Positions 9,072 through 16,967 of a DNA stretch of 64,000 nucleotides are shown piece by piece. The notes beneath the pieces were generated by a model. The model ran no database searches and had not been told where the DNA came from. It worked only from the letters and a program-made list of their open reading frames with translations. The translations under genes were made by a program, and so were the position numbers. Origin of the DNA: Bacteroidetes bacterium HGW-Bacteroidetes-5 (GTDB lineage Bacteria; Bacteroidota; Bacteroidia; Bacteroidales; UBA932); assembly GCA_002842515.1 (NCBI GenBank), contig PHDC01000001.1, positions 1,426,001 to 1,490,000 on the forward strand, in the 5' to 3' direction. Numbering within the stretch: position 1 is the stretch's first letter; the number at the start of each line of letters is the position of its first letter.

Positions 9072-10670
9072 TTAAAAGAATACTCCGTTTGGCGTATAAC
9101 CTAACCAGTGAAGAAGTGTCTCTCCCCAGACAATTATCATAACCCAGCTAATAACCAGCATTGTAAAGCCGAATTTAAAAGTGTCGGTTATACTGTATTG
9201 ATTTGTAGTGTAGAGCAATGCCGCAGGTTTACTGTTGAAAGGCAAAACATACACGTGCTCTATAAGAAGTGCTATAGGGAATGATAGGCTCATTATCGGG
9301 TACCCGAATTTTTGTGAGATACCTATTGCAATTGGCACAAAAATGAGGGCTCTCATCGTTTTTGACTGGAATATTAGCCCACTGAATATCATAACAAATG
9401 TAAGGCTCAAATAGAGAACCCAGAAGGGTGTCTGTTCGGAAATTCCAAAATGGCTAAAGAGTGAGTCTACCATTACTGCAGGAAGATCCGTAACCTCCAG
9501 TCCCGAACCTAAAGTATATGCTCCTGCAGAGAATAACATAAGGTGCCAGGGAATATCCACATCATTCCATTTTACTATTCCTATTCCCGGAAGCAGAGCT
9601 ACCACTGCCCCCATAAATGCAACTGCAGTCTGAGATATTCCGTGCTGTTTGTCTGTCGCCCAAAGTAAGAGAACAACAACAAAAATCGCAATCGCTTTAA
9701 ATTCGTCAAATTTCATTTTTCCTAACAGATGGTACTCCTCTTTGAGTCGCTCCATCCCACCCTCAATTTGAGGAATCTGCTCTCCGGGTTTCATAGGAAA
9801 AATTATCTTCGTTCCCACAACCCATCCAATCAATATTAATATCATACATAATGGGAAAGCGGCAAAGAACCAATCCTGGAATCCGAACATAGACATCCCC
9901 ATAGAGCCCGCAATGAGTGAACCGGCAAGCAGGTTTGCTCCAGATCCTGTTATGAACCCGCTGGCACCCATATTGATCTGGAATAGATTCTGAAGCACTA
10001 TATTCCTTCCGAAGTTGTTTCTTTTATCCGGAGATGCACCATAGATTGCAGCAATAACCATAAATATCGGGAGAAGAATTGTGGCCTTTGCGGTTGTTGC
10101 CGAAATGAATACAGAAAGAACAACATTTATAACAATAAAGCTGAAAAATATCCAGGTGGCATTTTTGCCGAACCGAATTACAAACCATAATGCAAACCTC
10201 TTGGCAACTCTTGTTTTAACAAGCATACTTGCAAGTACAAACGAGAGTATATTGAGCCACATTACAGGGTGTCCCAGCTGGGCATATGCCAGTTTCTCCG
10301 ATGTTACTCCGGTAAGGACCATTGTTATAATCACCAGAAGAGATGTTAGGTAGTTTGGAATTGCCTCAGTAATCCACAAAACAATTGAGGCCGCAAAAAT
10401 TGCAAGCATTGCATAGTTAATTCGGGAGAAATTCTGTGTCCCTAAATCGTTAAACCGTTTTAGAGACTCTTTCCCCAGCAGGCCCGGGTCTATGTCGTTT
10501 AAAAATGAGATATCCATAAAGTAATAAATCCCAAGAAAAACGATAATAGCCAGAGGCCCTCCAACTATCTCCATCCACTTTTCAAAACCCGCTTTTTTAC
10601 TTTTTTTTAGCTTCTCGACACGATAATTATTCATATCGAGTATGTCGTGCGTACTCTTTATAGTGCTCAT
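9072..10670 (-). CDS. SLC13/DASS family permease (divalent anion or dicarboxylate:sodium symporter)
   Basis: A 532-residue inner-membrane transporter with about 11-13 hydrophobic segments. Features of the DASS family include the SNT-like helical hairpin tip SATTAKATILLPI at about residue 190, GSGANLLAGSLI at about residue 240, and a second half with FSAGAYTLGSGLEVTDLPAVM. The canonical SNT triplet is read here as SAT. Known substrates of the family are succinate, malate, citrate, sulfate or phosphate; the sequence does not let me choose. It lies downstream of the phosphate block, behind a hairpin terminator, and upstream of the unknown gene ending at 7604. Confidence 0.88.
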   Translation of the reverse strand: MSTIKSTHDILDMNNYRVEKLKKSKKAGFEKWMEIVGGPLAIIVFLGIYYFMDISFLNDIDPGLLGKESLKRFNDLGTQNFSRINYAMLAIFAASIVLWITEAIPNYLTSLLVIITMVLTGVTSEKLAYAQLGHPVMWLNILSFVLASMLVKTRVAKRFALWFVIRFGKNATWIFFSFIVINVVLSVFISATTAKATILLPIFMVIAAIYGASPDKRNNFGRNIVLQNLFQINMGASGFITGSGANLLAGSLIAGSMGMSMFGFQDWFFAAFPLCMILILIGWVVGTKIIFPMKPGEQIPQIEGGMERLKEEYHLLGKMKFDEFKAIAIFVVVLLLWATDKQHGISQTAVAFMGAVVALLPGIGIVKWNDVDIPWHLMLFSAGAYTLGSGLEVTDLPAVMVDSLFSHFGISEQTPFWVLYLSLTFVMIFSGLIFQSKTMRALIFVPIAIGISQKFGYPIMSLSFPIALLIEHVYVLPFNSKPAALLYTTNQYSITDTFKFGFTMLVISWVMIIVWGETLLHWLGYTPNGVFF

Positions 10671-11889: not shown

Positions 11890-12714
11890 CTAATTTGCGT
11901 TGTTGTTAGAGCTTCCTTTAGTTGGGTTAGTAAATATTAATAGTGTAGATGAACCATCCGGCTTACGACCGTAAGATTTCTTCCCTGCAAGTGCGATTGT
12001 GCCAAAGTCCAGTGATGCAACAAGCACTCCGGATGGGTTCTCCAGATATATGGCATCGCCACCTGTACTCAATCCAAACTGAACTGTCTCTTCATTATAC
12101 TCGGTTGAGATAACAAGAAACCCTTTTGCTGCTATAGTAAGATTTCCCAGTACCCTTTTTGGTTTTGTCGTTCCGTAGATACCTCCGTCAGAAACTAGAT
12201 AGCCTGTAAGGTTAACAGGTATCTCAGAGTTGTTGTAGATCTCAAACCAGTCGGGGTCTGTTGCATCTTTAGTTCCATCTGCAAAAACCTCATTAATAAA
12301 AAGACTTATAACAGTAGATGCTCCAACGGTATAGGTTGCTAATGCCGTAGGTGCTGTAGCCGGGTATTTTGATTTAAGACCATCCTGATTTGTTGCTTCT
12401 ACATAGTATTGAACAACTGTGTTCAAAGGGTGTACAGGAATCGTTCCGGTATATACAAAGTTTGCTCCGGCAGTCATTGCCACCGATGTAAATGTTGATG
12501 CTGTTGAGATCTTATACATAAGATTTACAGATGTTACCCCTTTAAGGTCTGTAACTTTTGCGGTAACTGTAACGCTCTCTGTAGATTTTGGAGCAGCAGG
12601 GCTACCCGTAACATTCGATATAGTGGCCGGTCCTTCAAAAACCAGGTCTTTAACACAAGAGGTAGAGAGGATAAACGAAGCCAAAGGTATCAATATCAAT
12701 AATTTATTTTTCAT
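11890..12714 (-). CDS. Lipoprotein with C-terminal lamin-tail domain
   Basis: A 274-residue exported lipoprotein. The signal peptide ends in a lipobox, FILSTSC, placing the lipidated cysteine at about residue 20. Residues 35-130 look like an Ig/fibronectin-type beta domain (VTVTAKVTDLKGVTSVNLMY, YYVEATNQDGLKSKYP). Residues 137-270 form a lamin-tail domain: INEVFADG, DWFEIYNNS, VNLTGYLVSD, GDAIYLENPSG and SYGRKPDGS are its usual strands. In bacteria such domains occur on surface enzymes and adhesins. The gene follows the phosphate porin by 19 bases and is probably in the same operon. Its specific role is unknown. Confidence 0.85.
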   Translation of the reverse strand: MKNKLLILIPLASFILSTSCVKDLVFEGPATISNVTGSPAAPKSTESVTVTAKVTDLKGVTSVNLMYKISTASTFTSVAMTAGANFVYTGTIPVHPLNTVVQYYVEATNQDGLKSKYPATAPTALATYTVGASTVISLFINEVFADGTKDATDPDWFEIYNNSEIPVNLTGYLVSDGGIYGTTKPKRVLGNLTIAAKGFLVISTEYNEETVQFGLSTGGDAIYLENPSGVLVASLDFGTIALAGKKSYGRKPDGSSTLLIFTNPTKGSSNNNAN

Positions 12715-12733: not shown

Positions 12734-14098
12734 TTAAAAAGCTATCTGAAATCTTACTCCAAGCATTCCATAATCGTCACCTGCATTACCTGCTGCAGTT
12801 GCAACCTTGGTAGGGTCCTTTGTAAGGTTACCCTCTACATCTTTACCAACAAACAGTTTCTTCTTTCCGCTTGCATATCTGTCGTGGTTAACATAGCTGT
12901 AGTTAATCTGGAATTTGAAGTTATAACCTGTATATATGTTAAGTCCTGCTGTAACTCCCTCTGCAGAACCTCCATATACATCTTTATCATTTAAGTTAAC
13001 ATAATCGTAGCGCAAAACAAGTTCAATATCTCCCCATTTACGACCAAAATCCGGCTGAGTAAACTCCCCTTCACCCTTATTGTAGACCTGTCTTCCTCCT
13101 AAGAGCATATAACCTCCCTCAATATGGAATCCGCCAAAATTGAGAGTCTCAAGGTTGTTCTTTCTGATTAGATTGTTATTCATAATTTCACTCTGCAAAA
13201 AGAACCCTTTGTAGAATGTTGCCATCTCTATATTTGTAAAGCTCTCGTGGTCCATATTTGGAATCAAGTCTGTATCCAGATACTTCTTTCTGTTGATATT
13301 ACTCAATGACCGTGAGCTATACCTTGCCATACCCCACTCACCCGGAGCATAGCTTGTTTTAGGTGTTCTGTAAGAGTATGCAAATCCAAGGTGAACCCCA
13401 TAGTCTGTTTTGTGGTTAAATGGCTGGTAAACAAACTTTCCGGTTAATGAGATACCCTCATCACGCCCAAAATCTTTATTGTTATCCTCTGTATAGATAG
13501 CCTTCTCTGCATCCTCTATCTCTTGAAAGAAGATACCTCCAACTGCAAGAAACTTCTTTCCTGAGTATGATGTCTCCCATCCAATATGTCTGGATGGTGC
13601 AAAAGTCCCCACCTCAAGAGAGCGCTCCATAAACTTTATGTATCTTGAAGTTGTAGTCTGAGTCATTGAGAATGGCTCTTTGAAGTTACCGACTCTGCTA
13701 GAAAGCCCGTTAAGAAAATCATACTGGAGATAAGCATCATTAAGCTCCAGAACACCATTTGCAACATTAATATCCAACTCTCCGTATAGGTGTTTGTTAA
13801 TAATAGCCTTAACTGCAAATCTGGCTCTTCTTATCTTGGCACCATCACCAATTTCATTAAGTGTATTCTTAGAGAACAATTGGGCGTCTGCCTGGATTCT
13901 TACATCAAACCAGAGCTTGTAGTCCTGCTCTTTAGATTCAAATACAAGAATGCCGTTACGGGCCTCTGCCGAGAGAGGTTTCCTCTCTTTAATGAGTTTG
14001 CCGTACTGGTCATAGCGCACATCTTTTTGTGGCGGTTCCTGAGCAACTGCTACCCCGAACAGAAGCAGCAGAGTTAGTGTAAATAATGATTTTTTCAT
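12734..14098 (-). CDS. Phosphate-selective porin O/P family outer-membrane protein
   Basis: A 454-residue beta-barrel protein with a signal peptide cleaved after about residue 19 (FGVAVAQ). The mature protein alternates short beta strands with loops and ends in MLGVRFQIAF; the terminal phenylalanine is the usual outer-membrane assembly signal. The barrel signatures FDVRIQADAQLF, KIRRARFAVKAI, GRVGNFKEPFS-like (SSRVGNFKEPFS) and SLEVGTFAPSRHIGWE fit the OprO/OprP family, which takes up phosphate or polyphosphate. It lies 68 bases downstream of the PiT phosphate transporter gene on the same strand, which supports a phosphate role. No TonB plug domain is present. Confidence 0.88.
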   Translation of the reverse strand: MKKSLFTLTLLLLFGVAVAQEPPQKDVRYDQYGKLIKERKPLSAEARNGILVFESKEQDYKLWFDVRIQADAQLFSKNTLNEIGDGAKIRRARFAVKAIINKHLYGELDINVANGVLELNDAYLQYDFLNGLSSRVGNFKEPFSMTQTTTSRYIKFMERSLEVGTFAPSRHIGWETSYSGKKFLAVGGIFFQEIEDAEKAIYTEDNNKDFGRDEGISLTGKFVYQPFNHKTDYGVHLGFAYSYRTPKTSYAPGEWGMARYSSRSLSNINRKKYLDTDLIPNMDHESFTNIEMATFYKGFFLQSEIMNNNLIRKNNLETLNFGGFHIEGGYMLLGGRQVYNKGEGEFTQPDFGRKWGDIELVLRYDYVNLNDKDVYGGSAEGVTAGLNIYTGYNFKFQINYSYVNHDRYASGKKKLFVGKDVEGNLTKDPTKVATAAGNAGDDYGMLGVRFQIAF

Positions 14099-14166: not shown

Positions 14167-15915
14167 TTAAGCAGTCTTAACAAACTCTACAAGATTCTCA
14201 TCCTGAGAAAGATTTAATTTTTTTCTAAGCCTGTGCCTGCTGATCTCTACACTCTTTACCGATATGTTTAAAATCGGGGCTATCTCTTTAGATGAAAATC
14301 CAATTCTGAGCAACATCATTAGCCTTCTGTCCTGAACTGTGAGATTTGGAAATTTCTGAACAAGTCTGTTAGAGAAGTCTGCATAGACGTGCTCTGCCTG
14401 AGTGTAGATTCGCTCAACCTCGTTTGTAAAACTCATCTTTTGCTTTATTCTGCGTATCTCTGCCATAAGCATTTCGTTCTTCTCTTTTGGATCCTGAATG
14501 TTAATAGCAGATTCCAGAGTCCTCGATATTGAACTTAAAAGTTGCCGCTGCTCTCCGATACTTAACGAATAGGTTATAAGCTCTCTTTTCCGCTCTTCAA
14601 GCCTGGTAACCAACGAGTCATTCTCCAGTTGAATAGTGCTCACCTCCATATCACTTAGAGACTTTCTGATATCGGTATAATTTACAAGCTCAGTCCACCT
14701 CTTCTCATTCTCCCTTAGTTTTAGACGGTTTCTCTGGTATCTGTAAAAAAGAATAACTATTGTTATCAGCAGTAAAAAGAGCAGAACTATGATGAGAATA
14801 TTAACCGTCTCCAGAGGAACATTTATTGAAGATGATTTCACGGGACCGGGTTCAAGCACACTTCCGGCAATATTTTTCTTCGTTACAGAAATGCCAAATA
14901 CACTCTGAATGAAAAAAAGGCTGAAAAATGTTGTTACTCCCGAGAGAATCGGGGTTAAAATCCACCCTGCAATAATATTTCGGATCATCTTGAATTTAAT
15001 CTCCTGTACACCTTTAACTAAACCTATTCCCAAAACCGAACCGACTACCACCTGGGTACTGGATACCGGAACCATAGGTATGGCCGGCAACCCTATACTC
15101 ACAAAAAGATTTGACAGAGATGTAGATGAAAAAATAAACAGCACCAGAGCCTGTGCCAGTACCACAACTATTGCACTCTCCGGAGTCATTGCCAAAATTC
15201 CGGTTCCAATGGTCTCCATAACCTTTTTGCTATAGGTTAGTATCCCGATTGCAATAGAGATCCCCCCTAAAAGGAATAGGACAGTAATTGAACTAAACGA
15301 AAAACTTCCAATGTTTATTTCAAAGGAGATTGTCTTTACAAATACTCCCATAACATTTGCAATATTATTTGCACCAAGGCTATATGCTCCAAATGCCCCT
15401 GCAATAATAAGTCCGTTACGGATAACTGTGTCTAGTTTAAGGAGGTGAATGTGACTTCGTCTAATATATCTCCTTAAAAGCATATAAAGAAGTGCAGAGA
15501 ATATGGCTCCGAGAATTGGACCACTTATCCAGCTGCCCACAATAACAGAGAGCACGCTATAGTCTACCGGGTTCGCCGTGAAATAGCACCACCCCATAAT
15601 AGCTCCTACTATTGCCTGTCCTGTAGAAACAGGCAACTTAAACCTTGTCATTATTGCAACAATCAGCCCCGAACACAACGCCACGGTAAAGGCACCGCCA
15701 ACAGCATCAACGGAACCCAGCTCCGATAGTGTGTTGGTGGTTCCCGTACCCTGCAAAACAGCACCAAGTATTACAAAAATTCCGGCTATCAAAGCTGCTT
15801 TTGAGAACTTGATCATCCTTGACCCGACTGCCGTTCCAAAAATATTGGCAGCGTCATTGGCACCAAGGGACCAACCCAAAAACAGACCACTCGATATAAA
15901 GATAAGTATCAGCAT
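14167..15915 (-). CDS. PiT-family phosphate transporter fused to a LuxR-type HTH domain
   Basis: A 582-residue protein in two parts. Residues 1-340 are a PiT inorganic-phosphate permease, with the duplicated signatures GANDAAN (18-24) and GANNIAN (181-187) and about ten membrane segments. A further membrane helix at 371-391 is followed by a basic, coiled-coil-like linker (about 395-510). Residues 513-580 form a LuxR/GerE-type helix-turn-helix: FPNLTVQDRRLMMLLRIGF, then SSKEIAPILNISVKSVEISR and HRLRKKLNL. This module is common at the C-terminus of Bacteroidota sensor-regulators. Ordinary PiT proteins end after the permease. The simplest reading is a phosphate transporter that also contacts DNA, a possible transceptor. 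The gene follows the DUF47 gene with a 3-base gap. Confidence 0.9.
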   Translation of the reverse strand: MLILIFISSGLFLGWSLGANDAANIFGTAVGSRMIKFSKAALIAGIFVILGAVLQGTGTTNTLSELGSVDAVGGAFTVALCSGLIVAIMTRFKLPVSTGQAIVGAIMGWCYFTANPVDYSVLSVIVGSWISGPILGAIFSALLYMLLRRYIRRSHIHLLKLDTVIRNGLIIAGAFGAYSLGANNIANVMGVFVKTISFEINIGSFSFSSITVLFLLGGISIAIGILTYSKKVMETIGTGILAMTPESAIVVVLAQALVLFIFSSTSLSNLFVSIGLPAIPMVPVSSTQVVVGSVLGIGLVKGVQEIKFKMIRNIIAGWILTPILSGVTTFFSLFFIQSVFGISVTKKNIAGSVLEPGPVKSSSINVPLETVNILIIVLLFLLLITIVILFYRYQRNRLKLRENEKRWTELVNYTDIRKSLSDMEVSTIQLENDSLVTRLEERKRELITYSLSIGEQRQLLSSISRTLESAINIQDPKEKNEMLMAEIRRIKQKMSFTNEVERIYTQAEHVYADFSNRLVQKFPNLTVQDRRLMMLLRIGFSSKEIAPILNISVKSVEISRHRLRKKLNLSQDENLVEFVKTA

Positions 15916-15918
15916 AGC

Positions 15919-16566
15919 TTATACTACTCTTTTGATAGCCATTATAGATAGCAGATCGGCAACCTTCTCGGCTGTGTCTGAAATCATCTCTATATGTAGT
16001 GTGAAGTAGCGGAGATGAAATTTTTCGCTCAACTTAAGTTCCGGCATTTCGCGGAAAATTCGTCTGCGAATAATATCTGCCAACAGGTCGGCCTCCTTTT
16101 CATAAAAATAGACTCTGTGGATTTTCTCATTCACATTAACAGGATCTGTAAAGTAGCTCTTCGCTGCCGGGATTACGGACTCGGCTGCAGAGACCGATAT
16201 TTGTGTGAGCCGTATAAAATCCGGAATTAGCTCTGCAGGAATATGAGGCTGCTCAACATCAAACTGAAAAAGATTCTTTTTAGCCTGATCAATAATATTG
16301 TCCAACTCCTCAAGCAATCTCATAAAATCTCCTCTAAGTTCGGGCATTAGTGATTGAGAGAAAAGGGTATTCTCAATTTTTCTTCTCAGTTTATCTGACT
16401 CCAGTTCTGAATTTGCCAAAGACTGAAGGTTTGAGTTGAAGTTCTCTGTACTGGCGTAGAGGTAGTTTTTTACACCCTCTTTAAAAAGCAGTAGACTTTG
16501 ATCTACACAATTAAGAAATTGATCGATCAGCTCAATGGATTTGTTCGCTTTTGCAAAAAGTAACAT
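15919..16566 (-). CDS. DUF47 family PhoU-like protein (PiT accessory)
   Basis: A 215-residue helical cytoplasmic protein of the DUF47/TIGR00153 family, which is related to PhoU. Typical features are the acidic helix LLEELDNIIDQAKKN in the centre, and the second bundle with KIHRVYFYEKEADLLADIIRRR and the C-terminal DTAEKVADLLSIMAIKR. DUF47 genes are almost always paired with pit genes and are thought to control or stabilise the transporter. The PiT-HTH gene begins 3 bases downstream, so the two form an operon led by this gene. Its upstream region carries the repeated TGTAGAGTT motif. Confidence 0.9.
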   Translation of the reverse strand: MLLFAKANKSIELIDQFLNCVDQSLLLFKEGVKNYLYASTENFNSNLQSLANSELESDKLRRKIENTLFSQSLMPELRGDFMRLLEELDNIIDQAKKNLFQFDVEQPHIPAELIPDFIRLTQISVSAAESVIPAAKSYFTDPVNVNEKIHRVYFYEKEADLLADIIRRRIFREMPELKLSEKFHLRYFTLHIEMISDTAEKVADLLSIMAIKRVV

Positions 16567-16664
16567 ACTCTCAATTTTTTTAGTAATACCCCACGCAAGT
16601 TACAATATATTCAAACCCATAATTCATATCTCAATAAATGTTGGGATTGGAGGTTAAATGTTCT

Positions 16665-16829
16665 TGTAGAGGTATTGATTATTATTATTCCGTTATTTGA
16701 TAATTGTTTAAATATAGATATTTTATTGTTTGTAGAGTTAGATATTTATTAATGCAAGTTTATGTAGAGTTTATGTATAGGTATATTCAGGTCCGTTTAT
16801 TGCCTTGTTTCGCTTGTTACAACTCTACA
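16665..16829. repeat. Repeated TGTAGAGTT motif, candidate operator array
   Basis: The 9-mer TGTAGAGTT occurs at 16731-16739 and 16763-16771, and as its reverse complement AACTCTACA at 16821-16829. A shorter copy, TGTAGAG, lies at 16665-16671. Overlapping the third site, GTTTATGTAGA (16758-16768) is followed directly by GTTTATGTATA (16769-16779), an 11-base tandem repeat. Clustering of this kind in one promoter region suggests regulator binding sites. Confidence 0.45.
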
Positions 16830-16931
16830 GCATAAAAAAAGTGTGTTACAATCTCCTCTTATAAACCGTAAAAACCGGCCATTCTATTTGGCATATACGA
16901 GGTTTCTAAAAGAGCTTAAATAAAATATCAT

Positions 16932-16939
16932 TAGCTTTG
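16932..16939 (+). promoter_or_regulatory. -7 promoter element (TAnnTTTG)
   Basis: TAGCTTTG matches the -7 consensus 28 bases before the ATG at 16968. An alternative in-frame TTG at 16947 would lie almost at the transcription start, which favours the ATG. Confidence 0.4.
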
Positions 16940-16967
16940 CGATAAGTTGCGAGAAACGATTTTATGT

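Follow-up and report, generated by a model that had tools for sequence, protein, structure and literature searches.

The fusion gene and its operon

The window analyzed here is a stretch of 64,000 nucleotides of Bacteroidetes bacterium HGW-Bacteroidetes-5 (contig PHDC01000001.1, positions 1,426,001 to 1,490,000), and the gene under study lies on its minus strand at 14167..15915. It encodes a PiT-HTH fusion protein, in which a single open frame of 582 aa comprises a complete PiT permease, an extra membrane helix, a long helix and a helix-turn-helix (HTH) of the GerE/LuxR type. An earlier reading made from the sequence alone (the sequence-only reading) had described this arrangement, namely an unbroken frame joining a complete PiT permease to a last membrane helix, a linker and a LuxR-type HTH, and profile searches, an AlphaFold model and hydropathy analysis all agree with it. 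The PHO4/PiT permease domain covers residues 18–328 (14932..15864, minus strand), and the PiT/PHO4 profile scores 184.8 bits on the protein against a curated cut-off of 33.7. The duplicated GANDxAN signature is present as GANDAAN at residues 18–24 (15844–15864, minus strand) and GANNIAN at residues 181–187 (15355–15375, minus strand), the PVST and PVSST motifs are also kept, and the permease half was found to have the PiT fold.

The tail begins with the extra C-terminal membrane helix at residues 371–391 (14743..14805, minus strand), placed by hydropathy, the strongest peak (3.45) falling at residues 373–391 and being followed by a K/R-rich stretch. From it runs on a long helix, residues 392–471 (14503..14742, minus strand), the AlphaFold model having one helix over residues 368–471 and block values of predicted local distance difference test (pLDDT) of 73–89 from residue 371 onward; this linker is a putative coiled coil. 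The HTH itself lies at residues 524–577 (14185..14346, minus strand), and the GerE/LuxR profile reaches 36.8 bits with a curated cut-off of 23.5, which bears out the HTH similarity that the sequence-only reading had assigned to the tail. The tail is predicted to be cytoplasmic, placed there by the extra membrane helix.

With PiT/SLC20 permeases such as TmPiT (PDB 6l85) the protein shares its fold, the duplicated GANDxAN motifs and a neighboring PhoU_div gene, whereas the membrane helix, long helix and GerE HTH at its C-terminus are additions, and one group of its relatives (type B, see below) lacks the motifs. The tail is shared with Bacteroidota membrane-tethered GerE regulators, which include proteins of tetratricopeptide repeat (TPR)–transmembrane (TM)–GerE layout, triple-tyrosine or propeller regulators as annotated, and the BT3442 family. 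The NCBIfam BT3442 model gives 33.2 bits, below its cut-off of 940, and only the TM-linker-HTH portion aligns, with model positions 361–552 matching fusion residues 372–574; the tail of a TPR protein (L002) also aligns. In a plasmid collection 11 records match the query, none covering 80% of it, and two annotated proteins among these matches (H2, H5) align with the tail. Proteins of ~930–1000 aa (L016–L029, domains unscanned) carry the tail as well. What sets the fusion apart from these regulators is its sensor, a polytopic permease. The sequence-only reading knew of such tails on Bacteroidota sensor proteins and not as an established PiT design; the PiT-HTH combination has proved to be no singleton, occurring in many Bacteroidota records.

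The fusion gene is the second of an operon. The first gene (15919..16566, minus strand) encodes a PhoU_div (DUF47, "PitR"-like) accessory protein of 215 aa (Pfam PF01865, 5.6e-21), which we take to belong to the PitR group, and the third (12734..14098, minus strand) a Porin_O_P outer-membrane porin of 454 aa (PF07396, 1.9e-39). A lipoprotein-like gene with a lamin-tail domain (LTD) follows the porin (11890..12714, minus strand; PF00932, 9.1e-15) and is a putative member of the operon; nucleases bearing LTDs are part of the phosphate response of Flavobacterium according to excerpts of PMC8115612. PhoU_div was found directly upstream of the fusion in all of 98 non-redundant loci (99 kept, minus the chimeric L089) and Porin_O_P downstream in 86 of them, with 8 of the 12 loci without a porin ending within 650 bases; since the seed profiles were built from loci of the same set, these counts gauge conservation within the family. 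At L158:6195–7199 (G066) PhoU_div is joined straight to a GerE tail without a permease, followed by a porin, with a run of N inside the PhoU_div part. At L089:1569–5891 an unrelated large protein is joined to the end of the fusion gene, and this locus was regarded as a chimeric contig and excluded.

Relatives of the fusion protein

A search with the window protein alone identified full-length fusion relatives in no fewer than 11 of the 149 genomes of its family. Among 393 genomes of the order 27 have the fusion, one copy having an in-frame stop and another being partial and also showing a stop. A single in-frame stop within the permease part was seen at L074:4899–6731 and in L118 (G222), possibly a pseudogene or an assembly error. 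A collection of 84,980 species genomes yielded 316 relatives of the query; the best 80 were kept, their names being record labels, mostly of metagenome-assembled genomes, and among these 80 most are labeled Bacteroidales or Bacteroidetes, others Paludibacter, Chitinophagaceae, Flavobacteriaceae, Lutibacter and Maribacter, and a few carry non-Bacteroidota names. A full-text search of the open-licence literature found no account of a DNA-binding tail on a PiT permease; PiT permeases and membrane-tethered Bacteroidota GerE regulators are each known separately, and it is for their combination that no description was found there.

The ratio of nonsynonymous to synonymous substitution rates (dN/dS) between the window gene and L041/L042 (~97% identity) is 0.03–0.04 for the permease and 0.02–0.04 for the tail, which indicates that both halves are under purifying selection. 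The relatives were assigned by eye from a motif table to type A, which includes the window protein, to seven intermediates with partly eroded permease motifs, and to type B, a clade of 20 relatives without the GANDAAN motif in which the duplicated signature is not found. The one type B member that was modeled retains the PiT fold. In type B the tail is conserved and the permease half is diverging, while type A has the opposite pattern; the HTH positions are invariant across the fusion types. On these patterns type B probably no longer transports, and we propose that its permease has turned into a receptor-like domain.

For the trees and identity counts L089 and L098 (run of N) were left out and 15 copies at ≥97% identity were removed from the fusion set; for the permease tree rows at ≥80% were also removed, with 75 fusions kept. 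The tail tree is compatible with a single clade of types A and B (not rejected, p 0.79); both it and the PiT tree were built quickly and show either long-branch warnings or weak forks. One family contains both type A (the window and G012) and type B (G010, of the genus of the window), a hint of horizontal transfer or operon replacement. Two PiTs, at L149:2747–4150 and L155:3042–4295, have by eye a seeming extra hydrophobic stretch and a short stub, as if a tail had been lost.

The candidate operator array

Upstream of the PhoU_div gene lies a candidate operator, the core of which is a direct repeat CTATACA-N4-CTCTACA at 16763..16780 on the minus strand (half-sites 16774–16780 and 16763–16769). 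Further CTCTACA half-sites on the same strand are found at 16731..16737, 32 bp from the tandem's closer half-site, and at 16665..16671, the closest to the gene, so that, counted upstream from the start codon of PhoU_div, the four stand at 214, 203, 171, and 105 nt; an opposite-strand half-site is present at 16823–16829. An upstream alignment of eleven relatives has a conserved block around CTATACATAAACTCTACA at the fusion promoters.

A promoter set of 93 upstream regions remained after 17 duplicate loci and loci with <150 nt upstream were dropped. When all 7-mers were ranked, CTCTACA came first both for type A and intermediates (36 of 74 loci, against 2.25 expected by shuffling) and for type B (15 of 19, 0.43 expected), with a bias toward the coding strand (coding to opposite, 36:10 and 15:1 loci, respectively). 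The degenerate half-site C[ACT][ACT]TACA, defined after this ranking on interrelated loci and controlled by the tail-less set, the PstS sets (see below) and phasing, occurs in 89 of the 93 regions, and C[GT]TAACA in 18. Among half-site pairs 7–60 bp apart, 106 of 128 are near multiples of 10.75 bp, i.e., on the same helix face. CTCTACA is absent from 19 upstream regions of tail-less PhoU_div-PiT genes (17 distinct, two genomes being present twice as L141/L155 and L143/L156), the exact tandem likewise (0/19), and two or more half-sites were found in 59 of 70 fused and 0 of 12 tail-less regions (Fisher 1.6e-8).

In some relatives a TAnnTTTG element occurs ~31–37 nt before the start codon, with half-sites near 66, 121, 165, and 176 nt further upstream (67, 121, 163, and 174 nt in the example of L061), the fit across relatives being uneven. 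Half-site distances in some relatives are similar to those of the window, in whose promoter no convincing -7 element could be assigned.

CTHTACANNNNCTHTACA has a single perfect match in the 2.8-Mb window genome, at 16763..16780, the one perfect tandem CTHTACA-N4-CTHTACA of that genome, which lies at the fusion operon promoter. Such a tandem stands just upstream of the fusion operon in 4 of 11 fusion genomes (G000, G012, G029, G092), and most fusion loci without it have wider half-site spacings. With one mismatch allowed, 19 sites were found in the window genome against 15 control matches; all 19 lie inside open reading frames (ORFs) of ≥150 aa, 5 of them with a same-strand ORF start within 350 nt, and no further target is claimed. 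A looser tandem gave 46 places in 18 fusion genomes, two of them at a fusion promoter, against 69 for the control. The perfect sites of 4 of 8 examined loci were dismissed, being located inside an ORF of 718–731 aa. At L215:3010–3027 (G012) a perfect tandem immediately precedes the gene of a TonB-dependent receptor, after which come DUF4876 and DUF6850 genes, and may be a second target or a chance match.

A probable membrane-tethered regulator and the alternatives

We consider it likely, from sequence comparison, that the fusion is a PiT-derived, membrane-tethered one-component transcription factor which activates its own phosphate operon. The sequence-only reading had likewise proposed a membrane-held transcription factor, a proposal now well supported by the architecture, the operon, the array, the selection on both halves and the type B clade; its suggested target region, 16567–16967, was a good choice, and the conserved footprint narrows it to 16665–16780. 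The PiT core would act as sensor through phosphate occupancy or turnover, and PhoU_div would probably modulate it from the cytoplasmic side. Phosphate handling by the core might rearrange the terminal membrane helix together with the long helix continuous with it, the state of which would control the pairing of GerE heads on the helically phased CTCTACA-type half-sites ~100–215 nt upstream of the PhoU_div gene. The PhoU_div, PiT-HTH and porin genes would most likely be switched on at low phosphate, the porin providing phosphate entry, the PiT uptake and PhoU_div control. Activation is favored over blocking because the half-sites lie upstream of the promoter; the sign of regulation and the identity of the signal are guesses, and DNA binding, transport, the topology of the tail and the role of PhoU_div are inferred.

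Known systems offer partial parallels. The SLC5-type sensor kinases CbrA and CrbS also join a secondary-transporter domain to a signaling output, but in them, as described in excerpts of PMC8871633, a histidine kinase provides the output and depends on a response regulator, whereas the fusion has a DNA-binding domain as output and belongs to the PiT family. In Staphylococcus aureus the PhoU-like PitR is encoded beside the PiT permease PitA, and loss of PitR derepresses transporter genes controlled by PhoPR (PMC13170248, in excerpt); there the signal passes to a two-component system, while the fusion has a DNA-binding head within the permease polypeptide. If the proposal is correct, a permease bearing a transcription factor would shorten phosphate reading to one polypeptide. 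In the best-studied bacteria, transporter-based phosphate reading requires a PhoU-type adaptor and a two-component system. The proposal would also give anaerobic Bacteroidales, gut lineages among them, a circuit of phosphate control.

A wider version of this reading would see a Bacteroidota-wide family of PiT proteins, each with its own DNA-binding domain switching its operon via a dedicated phased operator, in a series within one operon context that runs from type A, a working permease with HTH, through the partly eroded intermediates to type B, whose permease would have decayed to a pure receptor beside a tail that is still conserved; we hold the chances of this to be evenly balanced. Were it true, the series would be a visible example of a transporter becoming a receptor. 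Types A and B, which apparently share an operator, would offer proteins that naturally have or lack the transport motifs, so that whether transport itself signals could be tested directly.

A number of observations weigh against the fusion as activator of its own operon. In the window genome the reversed control pattern, too, is matched perfectly once, and across the 149 family genomes perfect tandems number 39 (in 30 genomes), equal to the 39 of the reversed control; the count is thus at chance level, and only the position at the promoter is telling. The likelihood given to the main reading draws on position, strand, phasing and the comparison with tail-less loci. The perfect 11-bp tandem is found in just 8 of the 74 upstream regions of type A and intermediates and in 7 of the 19 of type B. 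The degenerate half-site also arises by chance, in 5 of 20 and 3 of 21 PstS regions and in 4 of 12 tail-less ones. In the PiT tree tail-less close PiTs are interleaved with fusions, with 6 changes between tail and no tail, and only three independent contrasts of this kind fall on supported branches, too few for significance. Between permease and tail the type B pair L010/L011 shows no contrast (0.12 vs. 0.129); of the three remaining type B pairs, two have one member in common. Lastly, the window genome encodes a Bacteroidota-type PhoB and the 11-bp repeats resemble a Pho box in layout, so the array may be bound by another protein.

The window protein is probably also a transporter, since its permease motifs are intact, and would then be a transceptor, as the sequence-only reading suggested. 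It is possible, although we give it a clearly smaller chance, that the window protein is already a pure receptor, its PiT domain sensing phosphate without net transport. Other transporters encoded in the window genome could supply phosphate, namely another PiT (L003), which lacks a tail and is accompanied by a PhoU_div gene of its own, and an NptA-type protein containing a PhoU domain, and from type B it would seem that the architecture can do without the transport motifs; the kept motifs and the low dN/dS of the PiT half against L041/L042 argue the other way.

Direct repeats of 11 bp are the layout of a Pho box. The CTCTACA array might then be read by PhoB, with the fusion tail regulating something else or only modulating the permease, an explanation that we regard as unlikely and still as the main rival for reading the array. 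A PhoB-type response regulator is present in the window genome (323.8 bits, the Bacteroidota PhoB cut-off being 270), part of the array repeats directly at 11 bp, as the CGTAACA motif upstream of PstS genes (see below) sometimes does, and the operon itself serves phosphate. Limitation of phosphate elicits a response of phosphate genes in the Bacteroidota PhoBR regulon, porin O and TonB receptors among them (PMC3547664, PMC8115612, both in excerpt). The repeat gave the first impression of a PhoB box; 20 PstS upstream regions of the order yielded a different top motif, CGTAACA (9 of 20, 0.67 expected), sometimes repeated at 11 bp. These 20 longer frames replaced a first PstS-like set of 40 loci (open frames of 273–306 aa) which gave no usable motif and CTCTACA in 0 of 40. 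CTCTACA is absent from the 20 regions and from 21 PstS upstream regions of fusion-carrying genomes (30 loci, less 5 short ones and, of the remaining 25, less 4 PstS-like ones with short frames, also without CTCTACA); in these 21, whose status as promoters is assumed, the half-site occurs in 3 and C[GT]TAACA in just 1. The tail-less PhoU_div-PiT regions without CTCTACA include that of L144, which has a porin, and the exact tandem is absent at NptA and at the second PiT. In view of these PstS regions we regard the tail of the fusion itself as the likelier reader of the array. In L265–L284, CGTAACA or CTTAACA, sometimes every 11 bp, stands upstream of PstS (10 of 20) and is a candidate Bacteroidales Pho box; in the window, at 16830–16870, two TTGTAACA-like elements on the minus strand beyond the half-sites resemble this PstS motif by eye. 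PF12849 (PstS) has no match in the window genome (93% complete). Replacement of Pst by the fusion was considered and rejected, PF12849 being found in 17 of 27 fusion genomes and 271 of 393 genomes of the order sample, with no association.

A substrate other than phosphate, such as sulfate in the manner of CysP-type PiT proteins, is rather improbable. The only NCBIfam permease model to match is a sulfate permease (NF053884), and close by, at 9072–10670, is a gene belonging to the Na/sulfate symporter family of Pfam, but that model scores 69.4 bits, below its threshold of 400, the partners are PhoU_div and Porin_O_P, and the sole PDB sequence match of the permease half is a phosphate transporter. 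Still less probable is a pure transporter, in which the tail would have arisen by accident or serve a structural purpose and bind no DNA, regulation being located elsewhere. In its favor, the window protein has an intact PiT core, in type A this half is the better conserved (63% vs. 35%), and several close PiTs have the same upstream gene without a tail; the tail is nevertheless under strong purifying selection by its dN/dS, its HTH positions are invariant, and in type B it is the tail that is conserved and the permease that diverges. That a sequencing or assembly artefact, such as the frameshift raised as an objection in the sequence-only reading, has united two genes is dismissed, since, although most carriers are metagenome assemblies and chimeric (L089) or stop-interrupted (L074/L118) loci exist, both halves are under purifying selection and the frame is intact in independent assemblies and, for type B, in the complete genome of Bacteroidales bacterium CF (CP006772, L101).
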